From a virus: 22,406 nt of DNA. The notes beneath the pieces were generated by a model. The model saw only the letters and a list, made by a program, of their open reading frames with translations. It did not search any database and was not told where the DNA came from. A program made the position numbers and the translations under genes. Below are positions 2,858-22,068 of the stretch, one piece after another. Where the stretch lies: IMG/VR virus record IMGVR_UViG_3300032286_000635, positions 1 through 22,406 of that record; one strand, written 5' to 3'. Each line of letters starts with the position of its first letter. Position 1 is the stretch's first letter.

Positions 2858-3898
2858 ATGTCAATCTATATCGATAACAAATATGTAAGATTAGTTTCTT
2901 CTCGTTTGCGTAACTTCAAACAGAAGAGCGATAATCTTTGGAACTTCTCATGCCCCTTCTGTGGGGATTCCCAAAAGAATAAACTCAAAGCACGTGGCTA
3001 TGTTTTCGCCAAAGGCAATGATTTATTATACCGATGTCATAACTGTGGAGTAGGAACTAATGTTGCCAATTTACTCAAGCAAGTTGATCCTTCATTACAT
3101 GGAGAGTATACATTCGAAAAATACAAATCGGGTGAATCCAATACATTCTTCAACAAAAGCAACACTTCACCTACATTCAATATACCATCACCACGATTTG
3201 GAAAAGTCGAACAGCAAAAAGTCTTCGACCATGCAGAATGGGTCAGCGAACTCCAGAGTGGACATTTTTGTCTGACGTATGCAGAGAACAGATGCATACC
3301 TACAGAACACTACGATAAACTACTATTCACACCCAAGTATCGGCAATTTATCGATGCTCTAGTGCCTAATCATGGTAAAACACTTGCAGATGATGCTCGA
3401 CTTGTGATACCATACTATGATGTCAACGGTGAACTGGTTGCCGTATCTGGTCGTGCATTAGAGACTTCCGATGTCAAACTACGGTATGTGACTGTTCGCA
3501 CCAATGATAATGATGATAAACTCATCTATGGTATGGACAGAGTGAATCTACATCAAACGGTGTATCTCGTTGAAGGTCCGCTCGATTCCCTTTTCATAAC
3601 AAACTGTGTTGCGTCTGGTGATGCAAATCTTTCAATCACGGCAAAAAATATTTCAGCACGAAATAAAGTGCTGATATTTGACAATGAACCACGAAATAAA
3701 GAAGTCTGCAAGTTAATAGAAAAAGCAATCAAGTTAGGTGAAGATGTGGTCATTTGGCCTGACACGATTGAGGGTAAGGATATAAACGAAATGATTTTGA
3801 ATGGTTTTTCACCAGACGAAATCAAAGGTATTATAGATAGTAATACATTTAGAAATTTAGAGGCGATTGCGAAGTTTACATTTTGGAAGAGAGTATGA
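2858..3898 (+). CDS. DNA primase, TOPRIM type (T4 gp61-like)
   Basis: 346 aa. An N-terminal zinc-binding motif has Cys pairs CPFC (32, 35) and CHNC (60, 63) with the CGDSQKNKLKARGY block usual in phage primases. A TOPRIM catalytic region follows: Glu239 in YLVEGPLDS and the acidic LIFDNEPRN (Asp275), then WPDTIEGKDINEM. These bind metal for RNA primer synthesis at the replication fork, together with a helicase not in this window. It starts right at the expected transcription start of a consensus promoter and overlaps thyX by 4 nt. The start codon is supported because the zinc motif begins 30 residues in, as in relatives. Confidence 0.92.
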   Translation: MSIYIDNKYVRLVSSRLRNFKQKSDNLWNFSCPFCGDSQKNKLKARGYVFAKGNDLLYRCHNCGVGTNVANLLKQVDPSLHGEYTFEKYKSGESNTFFNKSNTSPTFNIPSPRFGKVEQQKVFDHAEWVSELQSGHFCLTYAENRCIPTEHYDKLLFTPKYRQFIDALVPNHGKTLADDARLVIPYYDVNGELVAVSGRALETSDVKLRYVTVRTNDNDDKLIYGMDRVNLHQTVYLVEGPLDSLFITNCVASGDANLSITAKNISARNKVLIFDNEPRNKEVCKLIEKAIKLGEDVVIWPDTIEGKDINEMILNGFSPDEIKGIIDSNTFRNLEAIAKFTFWKRV

Positions 3899-7174: not shown

Positions 7175-8163
7175 TAAAAAAAACAAACCTAAACTTGCAA
7201 GAAGAACGAACACACTTTAAACCTTTCAACTATCCGTGGGCATACAATGCTTGGTTAAAACATGAACAATCACACTGGTTACACACTGAAGTCCCGATGG
7301 CAGAGGATGTCAAGGATTGGAAAAATAAACTATCGAAAGACGAGAAAGGTTTTCTCACTCATGTATTCAGATTTTTTACTCAGGGTGACATTGATGTTGC
7401 AGGTGGTTACGTTAGTAATTATTTACCTTATTTCCCTCAACCTGAAGTAAGAATGATGCTGCTTGGTTTTGCAGCACGTGAAGCACTTCACATTGCAGCA
7501 TACTCACACTTGATTGAAACATTAGGTATGCCTGAAACAACGTATTCAGAGTTTCTAGCATATCAGGAGATGAAAGATAAACATGATTATGTTCTTAATA
7601 TTAGCTCACAGAATGGCGATAGGGCTTCTACTGCTGCTCACATTGCAGTATTCTCTGCTTTCACCGAAGGAATGCAACTATTCAGTTCCTTTATCATGCT
7701 ACTTAACTTCCCTCGACATGGTAAAATGAAAGGTATGGGACAAATCATTACTTGGTCTATTGTAGATGAAACACAACATGCCGAGTCAATGATTAAGTTG
7801 TTCCGCACATACATCGAAGAGAACAAAGATATATGGAATGATGACCTCAAATCACGAATCTATTCTATTGCAGAAAAGATGGTAGAACTAGAAGATAACT
7901 TCATCGACCTAGCATTCAAGATGGGTAAGATGGAAGGACTATCTCCTGAAGATGTGAAACAATATATTCGATACATTGCAGACCGTAGATTGATTAGTCT
8001 TGGTCTAAAAGGTATTTTCAAAGTAAAGAAGAACCCACTGCCGTGGGTAGAGGAGATGATTAATGCACCAACACACACAAATTTCTTTGAGAACCGAGCC
8101 ACAGATTACGCTAAGGGGGCGTTATCTGGAGATTGGGTGGACGTTTGGGGTAAGGCTGCCTAA
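7171..8163 (+). CDS. nrdB: Ribonucleoside-diphosphate reductase class Ia, beta subunit
   Basis: 330 aa. Diiron ligands are visible: a probable Asp73 (TQGDIDV), Glu104 and His107 in REALHIAAY, Glu166 (FTEGMQ), and Glu200 and His203 in DETQH. Tyr111, four residues after His107, sits where the stable tyrosyl radical of class Ia/Ib enzymes resides, so the enzyme looks like a normal radical-storing R2. It supplies the radical to NrdA. The start overlaps the amidotransferase stop (ATGA) and the stop overlaps the desaturase start (TAATG). Confidence 0.95.
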   Translation: MIKKTNLNLQEERTHFKPFNYPWAYNAWLKHEQSHWLHTEVPMAEDVKDWKNKLSKDEKGFLTHVFRFFTQGDIDVAGGYVSNYLPYFPQPEVRMMLLGFAAREALHIAAYSHLIETLGMPETTYSEFLAYQEMKDKHDYVLNISSQNGDRASTAAHIAVFSAFTEGMQLFSSFIMLLNFPRHGKMKGMGQIITWSIVDETQHAESMIKLFRTYIEENKDIWNDDLKSRIYSIAEKMVELEDNFIDLAFKMGKMEGLSPEDVKQYIRYIADRRLISLGLKGIFKVKKNPLPWVEEMINAPTHTNFFENRATDYAKGALSGDWVDVWGKAA

Positions 8164-8876
8164 TGGAAATCATCTATCTACTACTGACGACACACATAAC
8201 GATATTGTGTGTAACAATGTATTTACATCGGAGTCAAGCACATAAGGGAGTTGTATTTCATCCTGTCGTTGCTCACTTCATGCGATTCTGGTTGTGGTTG
8301 ACAACTGGTATGGTAACCAAACAATGGGTTGCCATACACCGCAAACATCACATGGCAACAGAAACAGAACACGATCCACATTCACCACATTACTATGGTA
8401 TTTGGCGTGTCCTGTTTGGTGGTGCTTTTCTATATCACACAGCATCAAAAGACCAGAAGATGGTCGATAACTTTGGAGTAGGCACACCCGATGATTGGGT
8501 TGAACGAAACGTCTATTCAAAGCATTCGAAGTTAGGATTCTTGTCGTTGCTGTGTTTCAATACTTTGTTGTTCAATGGATGGGGAATTGTCATTTGGTTG
8601 ATACAGATGGCATGGATACCATTTTGGGCAGCAGGTGTAATCAATGGTCTTGGTCATTGGTGGGGTTATCGCAATCATGTATTAAGTGATGAATCGACCA
8701 ATCTTGTACCATTGGGTATTATCATCGGTGGTGAAGAGTTACATAACAATCACCATGATATGCCCGCCAATCCTAAGTTCAGCCACAAGTGGTACGAGTT
8801 TGATGCTGGTTGGATGTGGATTACTATTCTGTCTAAGTTGAAATTGGCAGATGTGAAATATGACAGTTGTGTTTAA
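8163..8876 (+). CDS. Membrane fatty acid desaturase (acyl desaturase family)
   Basis: 237 aa integral membrane protein with the three histidine boxes of the desaturase superfamily: HRSQAH (22-27), HRKHH (59-63) and HNNHH (194-198), plus extra His in NGLGHWWGYRNH. These bind a diiron centre that oxidises a C-H bond with oxygen to form a double bond in a fatty acyl chain. Hydrophobic spans surround the boxes. It is shorter than most bacterial delta-9 desaturases and has no fused cytochrome domain, so it would use host electron carriers. TAATG overlap with nrdB implies co-translation. Likely an auxiliary metabolic gene that alters host membrane fluidity; substrate and regiospecificity cannot be read. 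Confidence 0.9.
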   Translation: MEIIYLLLTTHITILCVTMYLHRSQAHKGVVFHPVVAHFMRFWLWLTTGMVTKQWVAIHRKHHMATETEHDPHSPHYYGIWRVLFGGAFLYHTASKDQKMVDNFGVGTPDDWVERNVYSKHSKLGFLSLLCFNTLLFNGWGIVIWLIQMAWIPFWAAGVINGLGHWWGYRNHVLSDESTNLVPLGIIIGGEELHNNHHDMPANPKFSHKWYEFDAGWMWITILSKLKLADVKYDSCV

Positions 8877-8926: not shown

Positions 8927-9493
8927 ATGAAGTTAGCAAAAATCTTGGCAGTAGCCACATTAATGGTAGCAGGTGCAGCACAAGCAGGTGGTTATGCAGA
9001 CCTCCAGTATTATCAAGAAGAGAATCGCAATACCAACAAAGAGAACATCAAACATGCAGTAACAGTCGGTTATAAAACTGATGACGCATGGGATTACAGT
9101 TTCAAGTTAGAGACAAGTCAAACTGAAGTTGGTAACGGTTCTATCAGTGAAGGTGTTGAAGCTCGTGTCCGTAAAGGATTACAATTCGGTGCATTCAAAC
9201 CATACGTTGGTGTGCGTTTAGGTGAGAAGATTGGTTCTTCATCGCATTTCACACACTATGCAGTTGATGCTGGTACAAAGTTTCCTCTGATTGGTTCTTT
9301 GAATGGTGATATCGGATATCGTTATCGTAATGCATTTGAAACAGTCAATTTGTATCAAAGCAATCGTTATCATGCAGCATTGTCTTATGCACTGACTAAA
9401 GAAGATACTGTTGCAGTGCGTTATAGCCAATCATTTGGTGACACATCGGAAGATAAGAACTCTTGGCGTTTCACATACTCACGTAGTTTCTAA
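8927..9493 (+). CDS. Outer-membrane beta-barrel protein
   Basis: 188 aa. A signal peptide ends at AQA before GG (about residue 20). The mature protein shows alternating polar and aromatic/hydrophobic residues typical of beta strands (for example AVTVGYKT, YSFKLETSQT, FKPYVGVRLG, RYHAALSYAL, AVRYSQSF) and ends in WRFTYSRSF, with the terminal Phe used as a BAM-complex sorting signal. About 168 residues suit an 8-stranded barrel. It starts after a strong AAAGGAG site. A phage-encoded barrel could alter host receptors, permeability or superinfection, but no specific function is visible. Confidence 0.8.
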   Translation: MKLAKILAVATLMVAGAAQAGGYADLQYYQEENRNTNKENIKHAVTVGYKTDDAWDYSFKLETSQTEVGNGSISEGVEARVRKGLQFGAFKPYVGVRLGEKIGSSSHFTHYAVDAGTKFPLIGSLNGDIGYRYRNAFETVNLYQSNRYHAALSYALTKEDTVAVRYSQSFGDTSEDKNSWRFTYSRSF

Positions 9494-9549: not shown

Positions 9550-10398
9550 ATGGATAAAACCTACCGCACTATTTTTATATCAGATGTCCATCTTGGAACG
9601 AAAGATTGCAAGGCAGGACATCTGAATAATTTTCTCAAGCACAATACATGTGAAACATTATATCTTGTTGGCGATATAATCGATGCATGGAAAATCAAAC
9701 AAAACAAATGGCGTTGGAAGCAATCACATACTAATGTGGTTCGCCGTGTTCTTGGTCATGCCAAACGTGGCACAAAAGTCATTTACATATTAGGCAATCA
9801 TGATGAATTCCTCAGACCATACTTACACTATGGTTTAGGTTTTGGTATGTTGGAAGTTAAAAATCAATGCGAACACATTGGTGCAGATGGTAAACATTAT
9901 CTTGTTACGCATGGCGATCTATTCGATGGCATCACAAGATTGGCACCGTGGTTATCCATATTAGGAGACAAAGCATATGATTTCGTTCTTTCTATCAATT
10001 CTCGATTCAATTGGTTCCGTCATCGACTTGGCTTTGGTTATTGGAGTCTTAGCCTTTATCTTAAACAAAGGGTTAAACGAGCTGTAGATTTTATGTTTCA
10101 GTTCGAGAAGAACCTTGCAGGTTACTGTAAGAAAAAAGGATATGATGGTGTGATATGTGGTCACATACACAAAGCAGAGATAAAAGAAATAGATGGTGTA
10201 GTCTATATGAATGATGGTGATTGGGTAGAATCATGTACAGCATTAGTTGAGCATCACGATGGTCGATGGGAAATAATCACATGGACAGAGGAGCACGATG
10301 ATGGCATGGATGATGATATTGATAGCAGTTCACCTAAACGACCCAAACGATCAACCAGGAAAAATAACACTGGAATTTCCCGACCAGCAGAGCTGTGA
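9550..10398 (+). CDS. LpxH-like metallophosphoesterase (UDP-2,3-diacylglucosamine hydrolase family)
   Basis: 282 aa. All calcineurin-type metal motifs are present in order: SDVHLG (Asp12, His14), GDIIDAW (Asp42), LGNHDE (Asn83, His84), VTHGD (His121) and CGHIHKA (His205, His207). The layout, with a long helical insert between HGD and GHIH, resembles the UDP-2,3-diacylglucosamine diphosphatase family that acts in lipid A synthesis at the inner membrane. The C-terminal 30 residues are Asp/Ser/Lys-rich and extend beyond the fold; another gene is encoded in a second frame there. Lipid A editing fits the neighbouring envelope genes, but a different phosphodiester substrate is possible. Confidence 0.85.
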   Translation: MDKTYRTIFISDVHLGTKDCKAGHLNNFLKHNTCETLYLVGDIIDAWKIKQNKWRWKQSHTNVVRRVLGHAKRGTKVIYILGNHDEFLRPYLHYGLGFGMLEVKNQCEHIGADGKHYLVTHGDLFDGITRLAPWLSILGDKAYDFVLSINSRFNWFRHRLGFGYWSLSLYLKQRVKRAVDFMFQFEKNLAGYCKKKGYDGVICGHIHKAEIKEIDGVVYMNDGDWVESCTALVEHHDGRWEIITWTEEHDDGMDDDIDSSSPKRPKRSTRKNNTGISRPAEL

Positions 10399-12202: not shown

Positions 12203-12826
12203 ATGAGTTTTGTCGTGAACAGTTTGCTCAAATCGAGAGCAATGGTGAATGCCCTATTAGAAAACAACGAATCAAACTTTGCAAGTGCCACAACCCCTCA
12301 ACCACTCACCGAACTAGTAAAAGCATCAGAAGCATGTGTTGATTCACTTCGCAACGGTGGCAAAATATTCTTTATGGGTAATGGTGGTTCAGCAGCAGAA
12401 GCACAACACCTATCAGCAGAGTTAGTCGGTCACTTCATGCAGCAAAGCAAACCCTATGCTGCACTTGCACTCAATACAGATACATCAGCAATCACTGCCA
12501 TTGGTAATGATTACGACTTCAAAGATATCTTTGCACGACAACTACAAGCACTTGGAAGAGCAGGAGATATTGCAATCTACCTATCCACATCAGGACGGTC
12601 AGAGAACATCCTACAAGCAATGAGAATGGGTAAGATGATTGGTATAACCAACATTGCATTCACTGGTCAGGTGACACGTTACATGCAAGAATGGGCAGAC
12701 TATTACATCGCCATACCATCCACATCCACACCACAAATACAAGAAGGTCATTTGATGTTGGGTCATATCTTATGTGACTACATAGAAAGTAAGTTGGAAT
12801 CAACAACACTGAACGATAACTTCTAA
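12203..12826 (+). CDS. gmhA: Phosphoheptose isomerase (sedoheptulose 7-phosphate isomerase)
   Basis: 207 aa, one SIS domain. Family motifs are intact: GNGGSAAEAQH (59-69) with AELVG (Glu73), LSTSGRSENI (127-136) and QEGHLMLGH with His183. GmhA converts sedoheptulose 7-phosphate to D-glycero-heptose 7-phosphate, the first step of ADP-heptose synthesis for the LPS inner core in the cytoplasm. The rest of the heptose pathway is not in this window. AGGAG lies 8 nt upstream. Together with the LpxH-like gene it suggests that the phage influences LPS structure or supply, possibly to alter receptors. Confidence 0.93.
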   Translation: MSFVVNSLLKSRAMVNALLENNESNFASATTPQPLTELVKASEACVDSLRNGGKIFFMGNGGSAAEAQHLSAELVGHFMQQSKPYAALALNTDTSAITAIGNDYDFKDIFARQLQALGRAGDIAIYLSTSGRSENILQAMRMGKMIGITNIAFTGQVTRYMQEWADYYIAIPSTSTPQIQEGHLMLGHILCDYIESKLESTTLNDNF

Positions 12827-16691: not shown

Positions 16692-16766
16692 TGGTCCGCC
16701 GTGTAGGAATCGAACCTACATTTATAGCTTAGAAGGCTACTGTTCTATCCATTGAACTAACGGCAG
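16692..16766 (-). tRNA. tRNA-Arg (anticodon UCU)
   Basis: Read on the minus strand, a full cloverleaf is visible. The acceptor stem is CTGCCGT with ACGGCGG (one G-U), the D stem GTTC/GAAC, the anticodon stem GTAGC/GCTAT around the loop CTTCTAA (anticodon TCT), and the T stem GTAGG/CCTAC with loop TTCGATT. The 3' CCA is encoded. It reads AGA, a frequent codon in these AT-rich genes but often rare in proteobacterial hosts, so it probably supports phage translation. It sits 6 nt past the end of the homing endonuclease gene. Confidence 0.93.
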
Positions 16767-16772
16767 ATTGAT

Positions 16773-17279
16773 TTATTTGTGTCGTGCAAACTCACCATGT
16801 AGTTTGTTTCGTGCAATAGTCATTGCTGCTTCTGCTTCTTCTATTGTATTATAACTTCCTAGATATTCATTCTTACCGTTTACCTTTATTCGAGAAACCC
16901 ATTTTTGTCGAGATTTATTCCAATATACACCTTTAACACCTGATGTATTGGTGGATTTGAGTTTAGTATTCATGAAATTTTGTGCTCTTGTTACTTCACG
17001 AAGATTCTCAATACGATTGTTTGATTTATCGGTATCAATGTGATCTATTTCTAATCCTGATGTCAGATATCCATAATGATACATAAAAATCATTCGATGA
17101 AGATTATAAATTTTCCCATCAACGAATACTTGATGATGATTAGTGGTTGGATTGAGAGTACCTGCAATCATATCCTTTCGTATTCCGAACTTAGATTTTT
17201 TCCATATCAGGTTACCATCATCCCGATACTCAAATAGTTCATGCAATCGTTCTTGCGATGGATATGATCTAGACTTCAT
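16773..17279 (-). CDS. HNH homing endonuclease with AP2 DNA-binding domain
   Basis: 168 aa. The N-terminal half holds the HNH core: NLHRMIFMYHYG, LEIDHIDTDKSNNRIENLREVT (Asp79, His80, Asn88). The C-terminal half is an AP2-like domain: SGVKGVYWNKSRQKWVSRI then YLGSYNTIEEAEAA. This two-domain build is typical of free-standing phage homing nucleases. It starts 11 nt inside the end of the gene before it and lies next to tRNA-Arg, so it has probably inserted between the small-gene operon and the tRNA. It would cut alleles lacking it during mixed infection. Confidence 0.93.
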   Translation of the reverse strand: MKSRSYPSQERLHELFEYRDDGNLIWKKSKFGIRKDMIAGTLNPTTNHHQVFVDGKIYNLHRMIFMYHYGYLTSGLEIDHIDTDKSNNRIENLREVTRAQNFMNTKLKSTNTSGVKGVYWNKSRQKWVSRIKVNGKNEYLGSYNTIEEAEAAMTIARNKLHGEFARHK

Positions 17280-17466
17280 ACTGATACGGCAGTCGTGTTG
17301 CTTTCAACTCTTTGATACGTTCCTCAAGCACACCGATAGCAGTGTTATAATGTCCAGTTGCCGAACCTTCTGGTTTGTAGTAATAACGGCGAAGCACTTC
17401 TACTTCAGTTTGCAGCACGGCGATATACTCATCACGTGACGTAAAGAACTGTTCATTGTTTGGCAT
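17269..17466 (-). CDS. Small helical hypothetical protein
   Basis: 65 aa from the ATG at 17466 after GAGGG; a longer frame to 17523 would overlap the upstream gene. DEYIAVLQTEVEVLRRYYYKPEGSATGHYNTAIGVLEERIKEL suggests a helical hairpin with coiled-coil features; I recall similar short proteins in other phages. It overlaps the homing endonuclease start by 11 nt. Function unknown. Confidence 0.68.
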   Translation of the reverse strand: MPNNEQFFTSRDEYIAVLQTEVEVLRRYYYKPEGSATGHYNTAIGVLEERIKELKATRLPYQYEV

Positions 17467-17467
17467 A

Positions 17468-17623
17468 TCATTTTCCCTCATTATTTGACGTTTGCGATTT
17501 AGTGATAGTACATTCTGTGTCATTACTCAACATCCTCATAGTTTTTTGATGCAGCAAATCCCATACATCGGGATCGCCGTAGAATAGAAAGACTGCGATT
17601 AGTATAGCAAGAAACGTACTCAT
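17468..17623 (-). CDS. Small membrane protein with DPDVWDLLH motif
   Basis: 51 aa. The N-terminus (STFLAILIAVFLFYG) is a transmembrane segment, followed by DPDVWDLLHQKTMRM, a motif I remember from small phage membrane proteins. The C-terminal part, beyond residue 33, is polar. It begins three bases after the preceding stop and ends one base before the next start. An alternative reading in another frame of the same region has a less natural composition and is not called. Confidence 0.65.
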   Translation of the reverse strand: MSTFLAILIAVFLFYGDPDVWDLLHQKTMRMLSNDTECTITKSQTSNNEGK

Positions 17624-17625
17624 AG

Positions 17626-17817
17626 TTAGAATTCCGTTTCTTCTGCCAGTTTGTTGCGAGAACTACGATAGGTTTCACTCTGCTCAAACTGTGACCGAAT
17701 GAACTGATTCTCCCACTGGTCGAACTCTTCATCTGCATCATCTGCGATTTCTTTCAACTCAATGGCTTCATAGTGGTCTTTCAACAGACGTTTTACAAAT
17801 TTGTTTTTGTTTGACAT
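17626..17817 (-). CDS. Small charged hypothetical protein
   Basis: 63 aa. ATG 17817 is chosen because GGAG lies 8 nt upstream; an ATG three codons earlier is too close to it. The sequence is highly charged and helical (VKRLLKDHYEAIELKEIADDADEEFDQWENQF). No motif recognised. Confidence 0.62.
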   Translation of the reverse strand: MSNKNKFVKRLLKDHYEAIELKEIADDADEEFDQWENQFIRSQFEQSETYRSSRNKLAEETEF

Positions 17818-17831
17818 TTCATTCACTCCGA

Positions 17832-17972
17832 TTATTTTAGTGGAACTTTTTCTTTGGGTGTAACCAACTCCGATGCAGTTTGCAAATCCTTACCCACACC
17901 CGATAGCACACCCGCCGTGGTATTACATGCAGATAGCATGACCAACAACGAACACAATAAAATCACTCTCAT
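17832..17972 (-). CDS. Entericidin-like small lipoprotein
   Basis: 46 aa. Signal peptide and lipobox MLSAC, with Cys16 expected to be lipidated, followed by NTTAGVLSGVGKDLQTASELV. The CNT...G.GKDLQ.A pattern is that of the entericidin EcnA/EcnB family, small membrane lipoproteins linked to stationary-phase lysis and antidote function in enteric bacteria. It is somewhat longer at the C-terminus than host entericidins. It lies mid-operon among early leftward genes. Role in the phage is unknown; membrane modification or a lysis-related effect are possibilities. Confidence 0.72.
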   Translation of the reverse strand: MRVILLCSLLVMLSACNTTAGVLSGVGKDLQTASELVTPKEKVPLK

Positions 17973-17973
17973 A

Positions 17974-18144
17974 TTATCCCCTAGTGCAATAACCAGCATT
18001 AATCAATGCAGTCGCTGTGCGACCATACGAACCTTGTAACTTCCATGCCAAACCTGAATCAATTAGTTTCTGAAACAAATCGATGATACCGTCATCATCC
18101 AATTCACCCGATTCGAACGCCATAATCGCATCAACTTCACTCAT
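17974..18144 (-). CDS. Small conserved-type protein (FESGELDDDGIIDLFQKLIDSG)
   Basis: 56 aa from ATG 18144, six bases after GGAG (another ATG directly precedes it). The FESGEL..IIDLFQ.LIDSGLAWKLQGSYGRTA..LI pattern is a strongly conserved small family found in phages and some bacteria (recalled as a DUF). Overlaps the preceding gene by 8 nt. Biochemical role unknown. Confidence 0.8.
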   Translation of the reverse strand: MSEVDAIMAFESGELDDDGIIDLFQKLIDSGLAWKLQGSYGRTATALINAGYCTRG

Positions 18145-18388
18145 CATTTTCTCCATAGTATCCATAATCTTCATCTGTACCAAAACCTGCCGATGCCATG
18201 CCCGAATCAAAGTCACCATCCAACGATTCATTGTATTGCGAATCATCAATTTGATTCATCCATTCTTTCGCAATCACTTCAACGTCACCCACTGGTATGC
18301 CATAGAAGTCGGCAATTTGCTGAAACGATAGTTTGCCACGTTCCAAGTCTGCTTCAATGTCAATAATCATATCTTTAAACCTACTCAT
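18137..18388 (-). CDS. Small protein with HTH-like segment
   Basis: 83 aa. Residues 15-44 (LERGKLSFQQIADFYGIPVGDVEVIAKEW) resemble a helix-turn-helix, as in sigma-like or transcription-regulator folds, with IADFYGIPVGDV as the turn. The C-terminal half is acidic and glycine-rich and probably disordered. The start overlaps the upstream stop (TAATG). A DNA-binding or regulatory role is plausible from the helical pattern only. Confidence 0.7.
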   Translation of the reverse strand: MSRFKDMIIDIEADLERGKLSFQQIADFYGIPVGDVEVIAKEWMNQIDDSQYNESLDGDFDSGMASAGFGTDEDYGYYGENDE

Positions 18389-18555
18389 TAATACACCTCA
18401 CGTTCATATACATCATAATCAATATCCAACGGCATTATCTCTTCTGCTGTCAACTCATCGGCATACTTTACCGCATCATCATACTTGGCAAATACTCGCA
18501 TTACGGTATCGCCTTCGTATGCAACTTTCTGCACCACAATGAATACTTTGTTCAT
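18388..18555 (-). CDS. Small hypothetical protein
   Basis: 55 aa. Begins MNKVFIVVQKVAYEGDTVMRVFAKYDDAVKYADEL, alternating beta and helix, then an acidic C-terminus (PLDIDYDVYEREVY). Similar beta-beta-alpha patterns appear in two other genes of this operon (20634 and 21194), which suggests a family of small proteins. Coupled at both ends by 4-nt and 1-nt overlaps. Confidence 0.65.
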   Translation of the reverse strand: MNKVFIVVQKVAYEGDTVMRVFAKYDDAVKYADELTAEEIMPLDIDYDVYEREVY

Positions 18556-18701
18556 ACCGTCACCCTATCATTTGCTGAAATACGAAAAGTTCGCATGTAT
18601 TGCACTAGTATTGCAGTCTTGGTCGATACCTTCGTGCAGAAGTTACCATTGAACTCAAACGAATCACCTACATTCAACTCCGAAAATTTCACTTGTTTCA
18701 T
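18552..18701 (-). CDS. Small SH3-like beta protein
   Basis: 49 aa. MKQVKFSELNVGDSFEFNGNFCTKVSTKTAILV has the FSELNVGDSF...KVS pattern of very small phage beta proteins I recall from other genomes. Starts at a TAATG overlap and ends with an ATGA overlap. Function unknown. Confidence 0.7.
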   Translation of the reverse strand: MKQVKFSELNVGDSFEFNGNFCTKVSTKTAILVQYMRTFRISANDRVTV

Positions 18702-19087
18702 TATTGCATACTCCTAAAATTCAATTCATTGACAAACAACTGACGAATGTGGTCACGCAAATGTGTTTGTGTCTCAAGTATGGCATCGATATGATCCGAA
18801 CTCATATCCTTCAGAATCACGTATGTCAATGGTTGCTTACCATCGATACCATACGTTCCCCACTTGAATACCTCACGAATAACCGAATGGTCTGCGTTGC
18901 ACATAACCGATAATTCAGTATACGGTGCATCATCGTGAATATTTCTTCGCAAGTAATCGAGGCCACCATCAACCATATACTCTTTACCATTCGCATCGAT
19001 ATATGTCACATAGTCGTGACGATTCATCGATTCGAGTATCGTACCATCAGGTGTGCGGATACGATTACATATAATTTTTTCACTCAT
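18701..19087 (-). CDS. Conserved phage protein of unknown function
   Basis: 128 aa. The order RIRTPDG, HDYVTYIDANGKEYMVDGGLDYLRR, YTELSV, IREVFKWGTYGIDGKQPL, DHIDAILETQ and FVNELNFR matches a family I recall from many T4-like and other environmental phages, always uncharacterised. The ATG at 19087 gives the usual length; the open frame extends further but overlaps the upstream gene. It is the largest of the small minus-strand genes without a recognised domain, apart from the homing nuclease. Confidence 0.82.
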   Translation of the reverse strand: MSEKIICNRIRTPDGTILESMNRHDYVTYIDANGKEYMVDGGLDYLRRNIHDDAPYTELSVMCNADHSVIREVFKWGTYGIDGKQPLTYVILKDMSSDHIDAILETQTHLRDHIRQLFVNELNFRSMQ

Positions 19088-19265
19088 AGTCGAACTCTTC
19101 CTCTTCATCCTCTTCATCAACAATGAATTCATTCACTTCCATCATTTGTTTAACATCTGAATCACTGAGATAGTTTATCATTGCACAAATTACCGCATCC
19201 CTATCAAGTATGCCCTCTTCAACCAAGTCGAGCAACTTCATCGAATATTCTCTCGCATTTTTCAT
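19080..19265 (-). CDS. Small acidic-tailed protein
   Basis: 61 aa from ATG 19265 (TAATG overlap with the gene before it). A helical body (EYSMKLLDLVEEGILDRDAVICAMINYLSDSDVKQMM) is followed by a very acidic C-terminus (DEEDEEEEFDYE). The helical body resembles small DNA-mimic or regulator proteins in a general way; no function recognised. Confidence 0.68.
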   Translation of the reverse strand: MKNAREYSMKLLDLVEEGILDRDAVICAMINYLSDSDVKQMMEVNEFIVDEEDEEEEFDYE

Positions 19266-19465
19266 TATACATTTTCCTCTGTTGGACAGTTGGACATACA
19301 CATTCTGAATTGTTCGAGAGCTTCACTATAATCAGTGTAGAACTTTATCGTTCTCTTGTAAATGCCCGAACCAATATCGATATCGTATCGATAGTCACCA
19401 ATGTGCCATAGCACAACACGTTCATTACGTTTATTTGTGCCACTCATAATATATTGAATGCTCAT
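19265..19465 (-). CDS. Small hypothetical protein
   Basis: 66 aa from ATG 19465 (TAATG overlap). ERVVLWHIGDYRYDIDIGSGIYKRTIKFYTDYSEALEQFRMCM reads as beta strands then a helix, much like the other small alpha/beta proteins here. Function unknown. Confidence 0.65.
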   Translation of the reverse strand: MSIQYIMSGTNKRNERVVLWHIGDYRYDIDIGSGIYKRTIKFYTDYSEALEQFRMCMSNCPTEENV

Positions 19466-19644
19466 TACCATCTATCCTCTGTTTCAATAATGCATTTCTG
19501 CATAACTTCGAATTCACGACGAAAATCGTCTTCTGTCCATTCGGATATGTCATTACGTGGACGAAAACCATACGCATCTTTATGCATATCCGAATAGATA
19601 CAAATATACTGCTCAAGCAACGACATTTCATTCCATAACTTCAT
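19465..19644 (-). CDS. Small conserved-type protein (YSDMHKDAYGFRPR motif)
   Basis: 59 aa from ATG 19644. It contains YICIYSDMHKDAYGFRPR, a motif I remember from many phage and bacterial small proteins, followed by a helical part. Another frame over the same bases has no such motif and is not called. It starts one base past the upstream stop. Function unknown. Confidence 0.75.
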   Translation of the reverse strand: MKLWNEMSLLEQYICIYSDMHKDAYGFRPRNDISEWTEDDFRREFEVMQKCIIETEDRW

Positions 19645-19645
19645 T

Positions 19646-19897
19646 TTAGTAACTCACATTGTGATGCGACTGATAAAAATAGACGGAAAAACGATTTGCA
19701 GAGTCACGTGGGCAATGAGACTGTGGACGATTTGAACCACGAAAACGAAAACGGTATTTTCCGAGAGTTGGATTTTTCGACTGAAACTCACGCACTGCAC
19801 TTCGTGCGACTTCAATCAAGTCAATAGGGATATTCTTAAACAAGGCAACTTCACTTGTAATCGGGTTTTTGTACTGCTCTAAATTGAATGTACTCAT
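19646..19897 (-). CDS. Basic hypothetical protein
   Basis: 83 aa starting at an ATGA overlap. The N-terminal part (FKNIPIDLIEVARSAVREFQSKN) is helical; the C-terminal part is rich in Arg, Ser and aromatic residues (KYRFRFRGSNRPQSHCPRDSANRFSVYFY). A nucleic-acid-binding protein is possible from charge only. Confidence 0.65.
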   Translation of the reverse strand: MSTFNLEQYKNPITSEVALFKNIPIDLIEVARSAVREFQSKNPTLGKYRFRFRGSNRPQSHCPRDSANRFSVYFYQSHHNVSY

Positions 19898-20085
19898 ATT
19901 TTCTTTCCATAGTCTATTGCATCGATATCATAAGATCGTGCAGCATATTCATTTTGCTCAAACAATGCACACAAGTCATCAACCATTGCATCATACTGGT
20001 AATCGATGTATTGCTCATTTAACAACGTGGCAATGTCTCTTGCCAAATCATTAATCTGCTGCACTGTCATAGTTGCTCTTTTCAT
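19894..20085 (-). CDS. Small helical protein downstream of the 20.1 kb promoter
   Basis: 63 aa from ATG 20085, which falls at the predicted start of transcription (leaderless), or 58 aa from ATG 20070, which has AAGAG five bases upstream. The protein is helical and acidic (INDLARDIATLLNEQYIDYQYDAMVDDLCALFEQN). First gene after an internal leftward promoter and operator. Frame extends upstream through the promoter, which is not counted. Function unknown. Confidence 0.65.
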   Translation of the reverse strand: MKRATMTVQQINDLARDIATLLNEQYIDYQYDAMVDDLCALFEQNEYAARSYDIDAIDYGKKI

Positions 20086-20091
20086 GTTCCT

Positions 20092-20120
20092 ATTATGCCC
20101 GATTACCCTAGACTTGTCAA
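20092..20120 (-). promoter_or_regulatory. Leftward early-type promoter A
   Basis: On the minus strand: TTGACA (plus 20115-20120), 17-nt spacer ending in CGGG, CATAAT (plus 20092-20097). It belongs to a set of four promoters sharing CGGGCATAAT. The expected start of transcription is at the ATG 20085. The -35 is inside a 15-bp palindrome and an 18-bp TGTTG-N8-CAACA site lies 7 nt upstream. Confidence 0.82.
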
Positions 20121-20124
20121 GTCT
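20110..20124 (-). promoter_or_regulatory. 15-bp palindrome over the -35 of promoter A
   Basis: AGACTTGACAAGTCT has 7-bp perfect arms around one central base and contains the TTGACA box. A protein bound here would block RNA polymerase, so a repressor operator is the likeliest reading. A shorter related form, AGACAAGTCT, covers the -35 of promoter D. Confidence 0.65.
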
Positions 20125-20127
20125 CTC

Positions 20128-20145
20128 TGTTGCGCCAATACAACA
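20128..20145 (-). promoter_or_regulatory. TGTTG-N8-CAACA site A
   Basis: On the minus strand TGTTGTATTGGCGCAACA, identical over 18 bp to site B at 21610. Its centre lies about 51 nt upstream of the predicted start of promoter A. Confidence 0.75.
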
Positions 20146-20152
20146 CATTGTC

Positions 20153-20470
20153 TCAAAATGTATTTAATGTAGGTGCTAATTTGGCAATCAGCTCACGTTC
20201 TCGTGCATGTGCGTTTTTGCGACCACGCACGATTTCGATTATTTCATACGTCCAATCACATTCTGCCAACTCACGCAATGCAACGCACATGCCCCACGCT
20301 TTATCCTCACACACTGCACGACTTACATGTTTTTGCCAACGAACTTTCACCGAACGAACGTATGCCTGACCATTTGCTACTGTTAGACCGATATACGTAT
20401 CATTCGTATCAACACAAGTCACTTTGTAAATGACATGATTACGGTCTGCACGTTTTTTGCGTATTGTCAT
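20153..20470 (-). CDS. GIY-YIG domain protein
   Basis: 105 aa. The GIY-YIG core is HVIYKVTCVDTNDTYIGLT, then VRWQKHVSRAV, WTYEIIEIVRGRKNAHARERELI (probable catalytic Arg and Glu) and KLAPTLNT. This is nearly a bare nuclease domain without a DNA-binding tail, unlike the longer GIY-YIG gene at 11130. It overlaps the upstream gene by 4 nt and is the last gene before promoter A, so it is probably read from promoter B. Role may be DNA processing or homing. Confidence 0.82.
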   Translation of the reverse strand: MTIRKKRADRNHVIYKVTCVDTNDTYIGLTVANGQAYVRSVKVRWQKHVSRAVCEDKAWGMCVALRELAECDWTYEIIEIVRGRKNAHARERELIAKLAPTLNTF

Positions 20471-20634
20471 ACTCTCACTTTCGGACTCATATCCATCAAA
20501 ATCGAAATAATAGTCTCTTCAGGACAATCATTCTCTGCCATAAGTGTCGCAATCGATTTACGATTGTGCTTATAGTCAAGAGTGATTTCAATCATCTTTT
20601 CACGTATTTCAACGTATTCTTTAATGGTACACAT
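20467..20634 (-). CDS. Small helical hypothetical protein
   Basis: 55 aa from ATG 20634 (TAATG overlap). Helical throughout: IKEYVEIREKMIEITLDYKHNRKSIATLMAENDCPEETIISIL, with a possible HTH-like pattern (KSIATLMAENDCPEETI). Function unknown. Confidence 0.65.
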   Translation of the reverse strand: MCTIKEYVEIREKMIEITLDYKHNRKSIATLMAENDCPEETIISILMDMSPKVRV

Positions 20635-20789
20635 TATTTTACTCTCACAAAAACGGATATACAACGAACATTTTCATTTTCAATCAATGCGTCTTGCTCT
20701 GCACTTTCGGCATCTTCGGCATCACAATGAAATTCCCATTGTTTTTGATAATCGTCACTTCTCTGCAAAACCAAAATATACTCTTTCAT
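20634..20789 (-). CDS. Small alpha/beta hypothetical protein
   Basis: 51 aa from ATG 20789, one base after the upstream stop. Pattern beta (EYILVLQRSDDYQKQWEF), acidic helix (AEDAESAEQDALIE), beta (RCISVFVRVK). It resembles the genes at 18388 and 21194 in layout, suggesting related small proteins. A longer frame upstream overlaps the next gene and is not counted. Confidence 0.65.
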   Translation of the reverse strand: MKEYILVLQRSDDYQKQWEFHCDAEDAESAEQDALIENENVRCISVFVRVK

Positions 20790-20790
20790 C

Positions 20791-20931
20791 TTAAAACTCA
20801 CTTTCGAGAATAGTTGCCACTGCATTGTCATCACGATTACGCAATGCTTCGACCACGTTATCATTTTCCAGTGCAATATCGGGATCAATATCGTAGTTAC
20901 TGCACAAAACCAGAAATTCATTTTTACTCAT
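20791..20931 (-). CDS. Very small helical protein (DPDIALENDNVVEALRNRDD)
   Basis: 46 aa from ATG 20931. FLVLCSNYDIDPDIALENDNVVEALRNRDDNAVATILESEF matches a short protein type I recall in many phages (EFLxLxxxYxIDPxIALEN...VxALRxRDD). Function unknown. It begins two bases after the preceding stop. Confidence 0.75.
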   Translation of the reverse strand: MSKNEFLVLCSNYDIDPDIALENDNVVEALRNRDDNAVATILESEF

Positions 20932-20933
20932 AT

Positions 20934-21197
20934 CTATTTCTCCATCACATAAAAAGTTTCAAGACCAATGACAATTTGATTCAGGTAACGCAATGCCATT
21001 TTTTCATCGATACTAGGAAAACGATAAAAATCACCGATGTTTTTTTCCTTATCGAATCGAACAATATGAAACAATACTTTACCCGAACTATTCTCAGAAC
21101 GAATTACGTCATAAACCATTGTGCCTACAGTCTTTTGTTTCACTGTTACAGCATCATCACTTATTAGACGATTAAACAACTCATTGAATCTACTCAT
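20934..21197 (-). CDS. Hypothetical alpha/beta protein
   Basis: 87 aa with an ATGA overlap at the start. NELFNRLISDDAVTVKQKTVGTMVYDVIRSENSSGKVLFHIVRFD reads as helix then beta strands; the C-terminal part is helical (SIDEKMALRYLNQIVIGLETFYV). No family recognised. Confidence 0.62.
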   Translation of the reverse strand: MSRFNELFNRLISDDAVTVKQKTVGTMVYDVIRSENSSGKVLFHIVRFDKEKNIGDFYRFPSIDEKMALRYLNQIVIGLETFYVMEK

Positions 21198-21376
21198 TGT
21201 ATCAAATCCCTAGTAATAACATAATAACGCAAATCCTGCTCACTTTTCGACTGCTTCGACAATCTATGCTCATTCATTAATCGTTTTGCTTCTGACTCTG
21301 CATCATCCTTCGAACTGTATACACTGACTACAGAATCAGAATACCGCAGATTAAGCATTAGAATAAAAACATTCAT
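21194..21376 (-). CDS. Small alpha/beta hypothetical protein
   Basis: 60 aa, starting four bases past the upstream stop. Layout beta (NVFILMLNLRYSDSVVSVYSS), helix (KDDAESEAKRLMNEHRL), beta (LRYYVITRDLI), similar to the genes at 18388 and 20634. Function unknown. Confidence 0.65.
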   Translation of the reverse strand: MNVFILMLNLRYSDSVVSVYSSKDDAESEAKRLMNEHRLSKQSKSEQDLRYYVITRDLIQ

Positions 21377-21380
21377 AATC

Positions 21381-21539
21381 TTAACTCACTCTTTCGGTAG
21401 TGATTTTCACGATATAACTTTCATTCGCACTATTGAACTGCCAACTTTTCTTTAAATGCTCACGTGCTTCTTTGCGAGTTTTGAATGATGCTTTCCACGT
21501 AGTGCCAGACCTACGAACCTGCCAGATTACTGTTTTCAT
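21381..21539 (-). CDS. Small basic protein, first gene from promoter B
   Basis: 52 aa. ATG 21539 follows AAAGGAAA in a leader that starts from promoter B. WQVRRSGTTWKASFKTRKEAREHLKKSW is basic, beta then helix, with the pattern of small AP2-like or integrase-arm DNA-binding domains, but it is too short to assign. It is the first product of the leftward early operon, which makes a regulatory or host-takeover role plausible. Confidence 0.68.
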   Translation of the reverse strand: MKTVIWQVRRSGTTWKASFKTRKEAREHLKKSWQFNSANESYIVKITTERVS

Positions 21540-21609: not shown

Positions 21610-21627
21610 TGTTGTATTGGCGCAACA
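21610..21627 (+). promoter_or_regulatory. TGTTG-N8-CAACA site B
   Basis: TGTTGTATTGGCGCAACA, identical to site A but in the opposite orientation relative to its promoter. Centre about 50 nt upstream of the predicted start of promoter B, with 6 nt between site and -35. Confidence 0.75.
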
Positions 21628-21799: not shown

Positions 21800-21817
21800 T
21801 GTTGTATCGGCGCAACA
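21800..21817 (+). promoter_or_regulatory. TGTTG-N8-CAACA site C
   Basis: TGTTGTATCGGCGCAACA differs from sites A and B by one base. Fifteen nt separate it from the -35 of promoter C; the centre is about 59 nt upstream of the predicted start. Confidence 0.75.
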
Positions 21818-21895: not shown

Positions 21896-22060
21896 ATGAT
21901 GACAAGAAAAGATTTCGTTGTATTAGCAGCAACTATTGCCAATATTACAGATGCAGCAGATCGTGCAAAATTTGCATTGCAATTGTTGCCTACTTTGAAA
22001 GCTTCGAACCCACGTTTCAATGCTGCTAAGTTTTTGGCAGCAAGTAATGTTGTTGTGTAA
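21896..22060 (+). CDS. Small alanine-rich protein, first rightward gene from promoter C
   Basis: 54 aa from ATG 21896 (a second ATG follows directly). AAAGGAAA lies about 6 nt upstream. The sequence is helical and Ala-rich (FVVLAATIANITDAADRAKFALQLLPTLKASNPRF). The open frame continues upstream through the promoter region but that part is not coding-like. Function unknown; it is likely one of the earliest genes expressed. Confidence 0.72.
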   Translation: MMTRKDFVVLAATIANITDAADRAKFALQLLPTLKASNPRFNAAKFLAASNVVV

Positions 22061-22068
22061 AAACAACA
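22051..22068 (+). promoter_or_regulatory. TGTTG-N8-CAACA site D (weaker)
   Basis: TGTTGTGTAAAAACAACA has the same ends and spacing as sites A-C but a different centre, and overlaps the stop codon of the 21896 gene. It can also form a 6-bp hairpin. It lies 14 nt upstream of the -35 of promoter D, as site C does for promoter C (15 nt). Confidence 0.5.

Follow-up and report, generated by a model that had tools for sequence, protein, structure and literature searches.

Dyad-bearing promoter cassettes and two predicted early transcription units in the small-gene block of an uncultured T4-like phage

The virus record IMGVR_UViG_3300032286_000635 was analysed over positions 1 to 22,406, a 22,406-bp stretch called the window here, in which positions 16773–21539 are tiled by 22 open reading frames (ORFs), all on the minus strand and numbered g1 to g22 from the right-hand end. 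The explanation that we favour, with a probability of roughly 0.75 for the whole, is that this array is the ORFanage of an uncultured T4-like phage, arranged as two early sigma70 units and preceded by promoter cassettes that carry a dyad operator. The host sigma70 RNA polymerase would read the block early as two polycistronic units, g1–g7 from promoter P1 and g8–g22 from promoter P2, with translational coupling within both, and the genes would be mostly strain-specific accessory genes and homing-type endonucleases that related phages exchange, acquire and lose. In each cassette an 18-bp dyad would be followed by a strong sigma70 promoter and then by a short leader. As a gene region the array is unremarkable, an accessory region of the usual kind; the novelty lies in its promoters and not in an identifiable new gene system, and it is the dyad linked to them that deserves to be followed up.

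The phage is assigned as T4-like from the core genes within the 22-kb window, a plus-strand set comprising a gp61-type primase (2858–3898, 346 amino acids (aa)), thyX, nrdA and nrdB in the conserved T4-type order. The best isolate match of the primase is Methylophilales phage Melnitz (43% identity), followed by T4-like cyanophages and Pelagibacter phage Mosig, and NrdA homologs too are found in Melnitz and in cyanomyoviruses. At the DNA level the whole window had no match among annotated phages. The core is syntenic gene by gene with four uncultured relatives, G002, G003, G004 and G006 (contigs of 170, 133, 82 and 77 kb), and despite this syntenic core the related contigs hold homologs of nine of the 22 array genes (g7, g8, g9, g12, g13, g15, g16, g17 and g21) and of none of the other 13. 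Small genes that lack orthologs in close relatives thus run alongside a conserved core, and the array is a hyperplastic region of the T4 type ('ORFanage'), a known kind of locus. As in the ORFanage of cyanophage S-PM2 (PMC4503421), a block of small ORFans adjoins the conserved core and varies among relatives; the block in the window differs in that its strand is opposite to that of the core and its promoters are dyad-bearing cassettes. Loss of the S-PM2 region upon passage, with a gain in fitness, has been reported (PMC4503421). Melnitz (MZ577097, PMC9004378) resembles the window in its primase-nrdA-nrdB genes, its run of small ORFs and its tRNA-Arg(tct). Its small genes are its own, read in a single direction with the core, and their run ends at the tRNA gene; in the window a tRNA-Arg(TCT) gene (16692–16766, minus strand, found by ARAGORN) adjoins the far end of the array. 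Unlike the window, the whole Melnitz record holds no dyad plus TTGACA module.

Four sigma70-like promoters were predicted in the window, each matching the consensus at 10–11 of 12 positions. P1 (21575–21603, minus strand, TTGACT-17-CATAAT) stands before g1 and P2 (20092–20120, minus strand, TTGACA-17-CATAAT) before g8, and the divergent P3 (21833–21861) and P4 (22083–22111), both on the plus strand, stand before two right-end genes, P3 serving a divergent gene of 53 aa (21899–22060, plus strand). All four share a common core, GGGCATAAT, in exact copies, and most of the leader; the exact leader pattern CGGGCATAATRGNNACATTGGAT was not found in viral contigs. An 18-bp dyad, TGTTG-N8-CAACA, lies upstream of every one of them, at 21610–21627 (P1), 20128–20145 (P2), 21800–21817 (P3) and 22051–22068 (P4, where it overlaps the stop codon of the 53-aa gene), and its end falls 6–15 bp upstream of the −35 element in all four cases. 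P2 lies inside the single break of the array, where g7 and g8 are 82 nt apart, and the array is therefore divided into two transcription units, g1–g7 and g8–g22.

The cassettes are repeats of 72–82% identity, some of them inverted, and the block is inverted relative to the relatives. Homologs of g8, g12, g13, g15 and g17 lie on the strand of the core and downstream of it in the related contigs, and in these relatives and in Melnitz the small genes share the strand of the core, to which the block in the window is opposite. The block was plausibly flipped by recombination between inverted promoter cassettes at about 21.54–21.90 kb.

The dyad and its link to promoters recur far beyond the window. 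Its sequence is mostly TGTTGY-N6-RCAACA, and the pattern emerged only once the motif had been relaxed to TGTTG-N8-CAACA; the more specific operators TGTTGYRYYGGCGCAACA (80 viral stretches) and TGTTGTATYGGCGCAACA (26 bacterial stretches) were rejected, with many occurrences in coding frames and numbers near chance expectation. Counted over the window and its related contigs, dyads with a spacer of 8 number 22 against 2.3 expected, nearly all of them just upstream of promoters, and in the relatives consensus sigma70 promoters are themselves in excess over shuffled sequence (35 against 5–10 in G002, 32 against 4–7 in G006). No fewer than 120 viral stretches carry the dyad with a consensus promoter and none carries the inside-out control, and the asymmetric C/A and T/G forms of the dyad each occur with a promoter in at least 120 viral stretches. 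Proteins shared with the T4-like relatives accompany 103 of the first 120 dyad loci and are absent from 17. At 444 other promoters in dyad-bearing contigs, spacer 8 occurred 45 times and every other spacer at most three times, a count taken from loci fetched for carrying dyads and not to be read as a genome-wide frequency. The predicted transcription starts usually lie 12–32 nt from a gene start with a ribosome-binding site, where one was found, and this supports the promoters as assigned. Neither the nine phage isolates searched, Melnitz among them, nor the literature yielded a counterpart: the module is absent from the former, and the search for the dyad motif in the latter gave nothing relevant and no match to a described regulator. 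Four viral contigs (L040, L051, L061 and L068) carry tandem TGTTGTAT-type repeats followed by TGCACC-type repeats, possibly a related operator array.

Most probably the dyad is a DNA operator to which a dimeric regulator binds, one that would co-regulate many promoters of the phage lineage. A DNA operator is favoured because the spacer is fixed at 8, there is no bias towards RNA pairing and the predicted hairpins are weak and mostly lack a U-tract. Among imperfect promoters, which had not been selected by the scan, positions 6 and 13 of the dyad are C/A in 11 cases and T/G in 11, and RNA pairing is therefore not conserved. Predicted hairpin energies have a median of −4.5 kcal/mol (−2.4 to −5.1 for the copies in the window), as compared with terminator-like stems of down to about −13 kcal/mol in the same place at other promoters, and only 18 of 183 dyads are followed by at least five T in ten bases. 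Several points weigh against this explanation. Dyad sites taken from related phages are non-independent observations; the distance from dyad to −35 element ranges from 1 to 30 bp and shows no clear helical phasing, in which it departs from a classical activator; sigma70-like matches in the region of the window are overall fewer than the shuffled mean; and the promoters, with the early expression that they would drive, were predicted by consensus match. In addition, upstream genes often end inside or beside the dyad, and a role at the 3' end of these genes is possible.

This last point also speaks for an alternative in which the dyad is a stem-loop, the terminator of the upstream gene joined to an early promoter, whose similarity between copies is kept by recombination and not by a regulator. 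Promoter-early-stem-loop (PeSL) elements, reportedly described by Arbiol in 2010 and Comeau in 2014, both cited in PMC4503421, are said to combine a strong early promoter with a terminator stem-loop and to act as gene-shuffling points in T4-type phages. The cassettes in the window have the layout and the genomic setting of PeSLs, a strong sigma70-like promoter beside an inverted repeat, recurring between small accessory genes; the dyad usually adjoins the end of the upstream gene; and varied strong stem-loops lie upstream of other promoters in these phages, 32 of 402 having stems 7 bp or longer against about 4.6 expected. In contrast to PeSLs, the inverted repeat here has a single fixed sequence and spacing, forms only a weak hairpin mostly without a U-tract and shows no RNA-pairing bias, and the copies at 21610 and 21800 sit between g1 and the divergent 53-aa gene, not at a gene end. 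No terminator stem-loop of the PeSL type was found in silico in the cassettes of the window, which we accordingly class, as predicted elements, as PeSL-like and not as PeSLs. On balance we consider the stem-loop explanation unlikely, at about one chance in a few. Few PeSLs have been reported in the S-PM2 region (PMC4503421).

In a second alternative, a host regulator binds the dyad and is exploited by several phages. The 17 of 120 dyad loci without a protein shared with the fetched relatives are consistent with use of the dyad by different phages. Against this, the dyad plus promoter module is absent from 398 Pseudomonadota genomes, a sample that may not include the host, and within a betaproteobacterial order the strict dyad alone occurs in one of 80 genomes; a host regulator is, in our judgement, doubtful. 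The operator reading could be extended to a dedicated dimeric regulator of this uncultured T4-like lineage, probably phage-encoded, that would bind TGTTGY-N6-RCAACA directly ahead of intact sigma70 promoters and switch early and accessory operons genome-wide, replacing middle control of the MotA type. We put this forward tentatively, as a possibility with the odds somewhat against it. The T4 MotA box takes the place of the −35 element. The dyad promoters resemble the MotA/AsiA middle promoters of T4 in that a repeated protein-binding motif marks a set of phage promoters, and differ from them in keeping an intact −35 element, with the motif upstream of it. Melnitz has been described as having no identifiable middle promoters, and such promoters are reported to be lacking in marine T4-like phages (PMC9004378). 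One candidate regulator, no more than a lead, is a winged-helix protein of 91 aa (HTH_39 at E 0.0013, short of the cut-off) that is conserved in dyad-bearing contigs. In G002 (L195:12139-16028) a peptidase-like gene, an AAA_5 (CobS/MoxR-like) gene and the gene for this 91-aa protein are consecutive, and relatives of the peptidase-like and AAA_5 genes often lie downstream of a dyad promoter in other contigs.

The array genes, all on the minus strand, are mostly without a recognisable function. Unit 1 is made up of g1 (21381–21539, 52 aa, basic with an isoelectric point of 10.7, an ORFan without homolog in the relatives), g2 (21194–21376, 60 aa, weakly similar to g15 and, below cut-off, to DUF7336), four further ORFans, g3 (20934–21197, 87 aa), g4 (20791–20931, 46 aa, acidic), g5 (20634–20789, 51 aa, acidic) and g6 (20467–20634, 55 aa), and, at its end, g7 (20153–20470, 105 aa), a putative GIY-YIG-type, homing endonuclease-like nuclease. 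The match of g7 to Pfam GIY-YIG (E 1.6e-4, 22.3 bits) falls just under the gathering cut-off of 22.6; the protein also matches three PHROG homing endonuclease families (E 2.5e-4) and has homologs in four related contigs.

Unit 2 opens with g8 (19894–20070, 58 aa, acidic; 37–49% homologs in four relatives), which is followed by g9 (19646–19897, 83 aa, basic; 31% homolog in G002), g10 (19465–19644, 59 aa; PHROG 21968 of unknown function, E 1.3e-4), the ORFan g11 (19265–19465, 66 aa), g12 (19080–19265, 61 aa, with an acidic tail; 46–48% homologs in G004 and G006), g13 (18701–19087, 128 aa), which belongs to a DUF7695-containing family, and g14 (18552–18701, 49 aa; PHROG 1648 of unknown function, E 9e-5). 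Then come g15 (18388–18555, 55 aa; 45–51% homologs in four relatives), g16 (18137–18388, 83 aa, acidic; 66% homologs in G001 and G002 and a match to a PHROG of unknown function), g17 (17974–18144, 56 aa; DUF7417, Pfam E 4.4e-21; 56–71% homologs in relatives) and g18 (17832–17972, 46 aa), a small lipoprotein that is weakly entericidin B-like (NCBIfam E 0.0085, 15.8 bits against a cut-off of 94). The unit closes with the ORFan g19 (17626–17817, 63 aa), the ORFan g20 (17468–17623, 51 aa, hydrophobic N-terminus), g21 (17269–17466, 65 aa; 67% homolog in G002, located there at a distance from the other homologs) and g22 (16773–17279, 168 aa), a homing-type endonuclease with HNH_3 and AP2 domains (Pfam E 1.1e-18 and 4.8e-9).

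The first-pass annotation had assigned a shared beta-helix-beta layout to g15, g11, g5 and g2 and helix-turn-helix (HTH)-like segments to g16 and g6. Only g15 was modelled among the former, as beta-beta-alpha-beta with a predicted local distance difference test (pLDDT) score of 85, and the others were compared with it by alignment; g2 aligned at 32% identity, and for g5 and g11, at 20% and 14%, a shared layout is not supported. A possible HTH in the N-terminal half of g16 survives as a sub-threshold match (E 0.09), and none was found in g6.

The array protein that stands out is g13, which matches Pfam DUF7695 (E 1.7e-6, 28.1 bits, above the gathering cut-off of 25) and had no match in PHROGs. 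Its family is present at no fewer than 133 viral loci and in just 14 annotated phage records out of 50,697, chiefly phages of Aeromonas, Vibrio, Alishewanella and Limnohabitans. The AlphaFold2 (AF2) model is confident (pLDDT 93.4), finds no significant fold match in the PDB and has a DUF7695 protein as its sole significant fold match in BFVD (template modelling (TM) score 0.85); the combination makes g13 worth solving. The N-terminal half of the family is strongly conserved (TPDGT...DANGKEYMVDGG, L082-L161).

The products of the block may act on the host, and it had been proposed that small genes of this kind often hold host-takeover or anti-defence proteins. Small, early-type, variable phage genes do often have such roles as a matter of general knowledge; g12, g16, g8 and g4 are strongly acidic, as DNA-mimic inhibitors are; and T4 Dmd appears far down the fold-search list of g15 (E 3.8, not significant), a search that gave no significant PDB match. 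Acidity by itself is common among phage proteins, two members of the array are endonucleases, g7 putatively so, and g13 represents a family conserved across very different phages. Among the proteins tested there was no significant match to defence or anti-defence families or solved structures, and no known anti-defence protein emerged from Pfam, PHROGs, NCBIfam, PADLOC or solved structures, libraries that are poor for that class. No array gene is singled out as an inhibitor, and we regard it as improbable that the block is a dedicated anti-defence or host-takeover cluster with inhibitors of CRISPR, restriction and toxin systems.

The array had also been described as about 22 small genes, nearly all of 46–128 codons, lying head to tail with TAATG or ATGA junctions, and as early and dispensable. 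Its longest head-to-tail chain (counting ATG ORFs from 45 codons upwards) indeed comprises 22 genes over 4737 bp, compared with two on the opposite strand and a maximum of two in 200 dinucleotide shuffles, and is broken once, between g7 and g8. Nine junctions conform to the description, five as TAATG (1-nt overlap) and four as ATGA (4-nt overlap), and 11 others lie at −11 to +14 nt; protein lengths run from 46 to 168 aa, the upper end being set by g22. The early, small and dispensable character agrees with the predicted host-type sigma70 promoters before both units, with the lack of any T4-type late box (TATAAATA) in the window and with the number of genes without homologs. By codon usage the called frame scores best for all 22 genes, an outcome that the choice of stop-free frames favours in itself. 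A reading of the array as an artefact of ORF calling, with mostly non-coding small ORFs, would accord with the weak codon signal in g2, g14, g18 and g20, and is rendered extremely improbable by the 22-gene chain against two in shuffles, the tight junction couplings and the protein homologs of nine genes.

Four further genes elsewhere in the window were noted. A membrane desaturase-like protein (8163–8876) has three histidine boxes (HRxxxH, HRKHH and HNNHH), a 68% match to one relative and no Pfam match at E 0.01. Between its gene and that of a metallophosphatase lies the gene for a signal-peptide protein (8927–9493) that looks by eye like an outer-membrane beta-barrel and has no homolog in the related contigs. 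The metallophosphatase, a calcineurin-like phosphoesterase (9550–10398), resembles LpxH by eye, as a sugar isomerase (12203–12826) does GmhA; both are of host-envelope type and have homologs in relatives.

Gene timing is poorly known in T4-like phages other than coliphages. An unvarying operator that precedes many phage promoters provides a testable motif and a route to the regulator, and the dyad may serve as a marker of early genes in uncultured phages.

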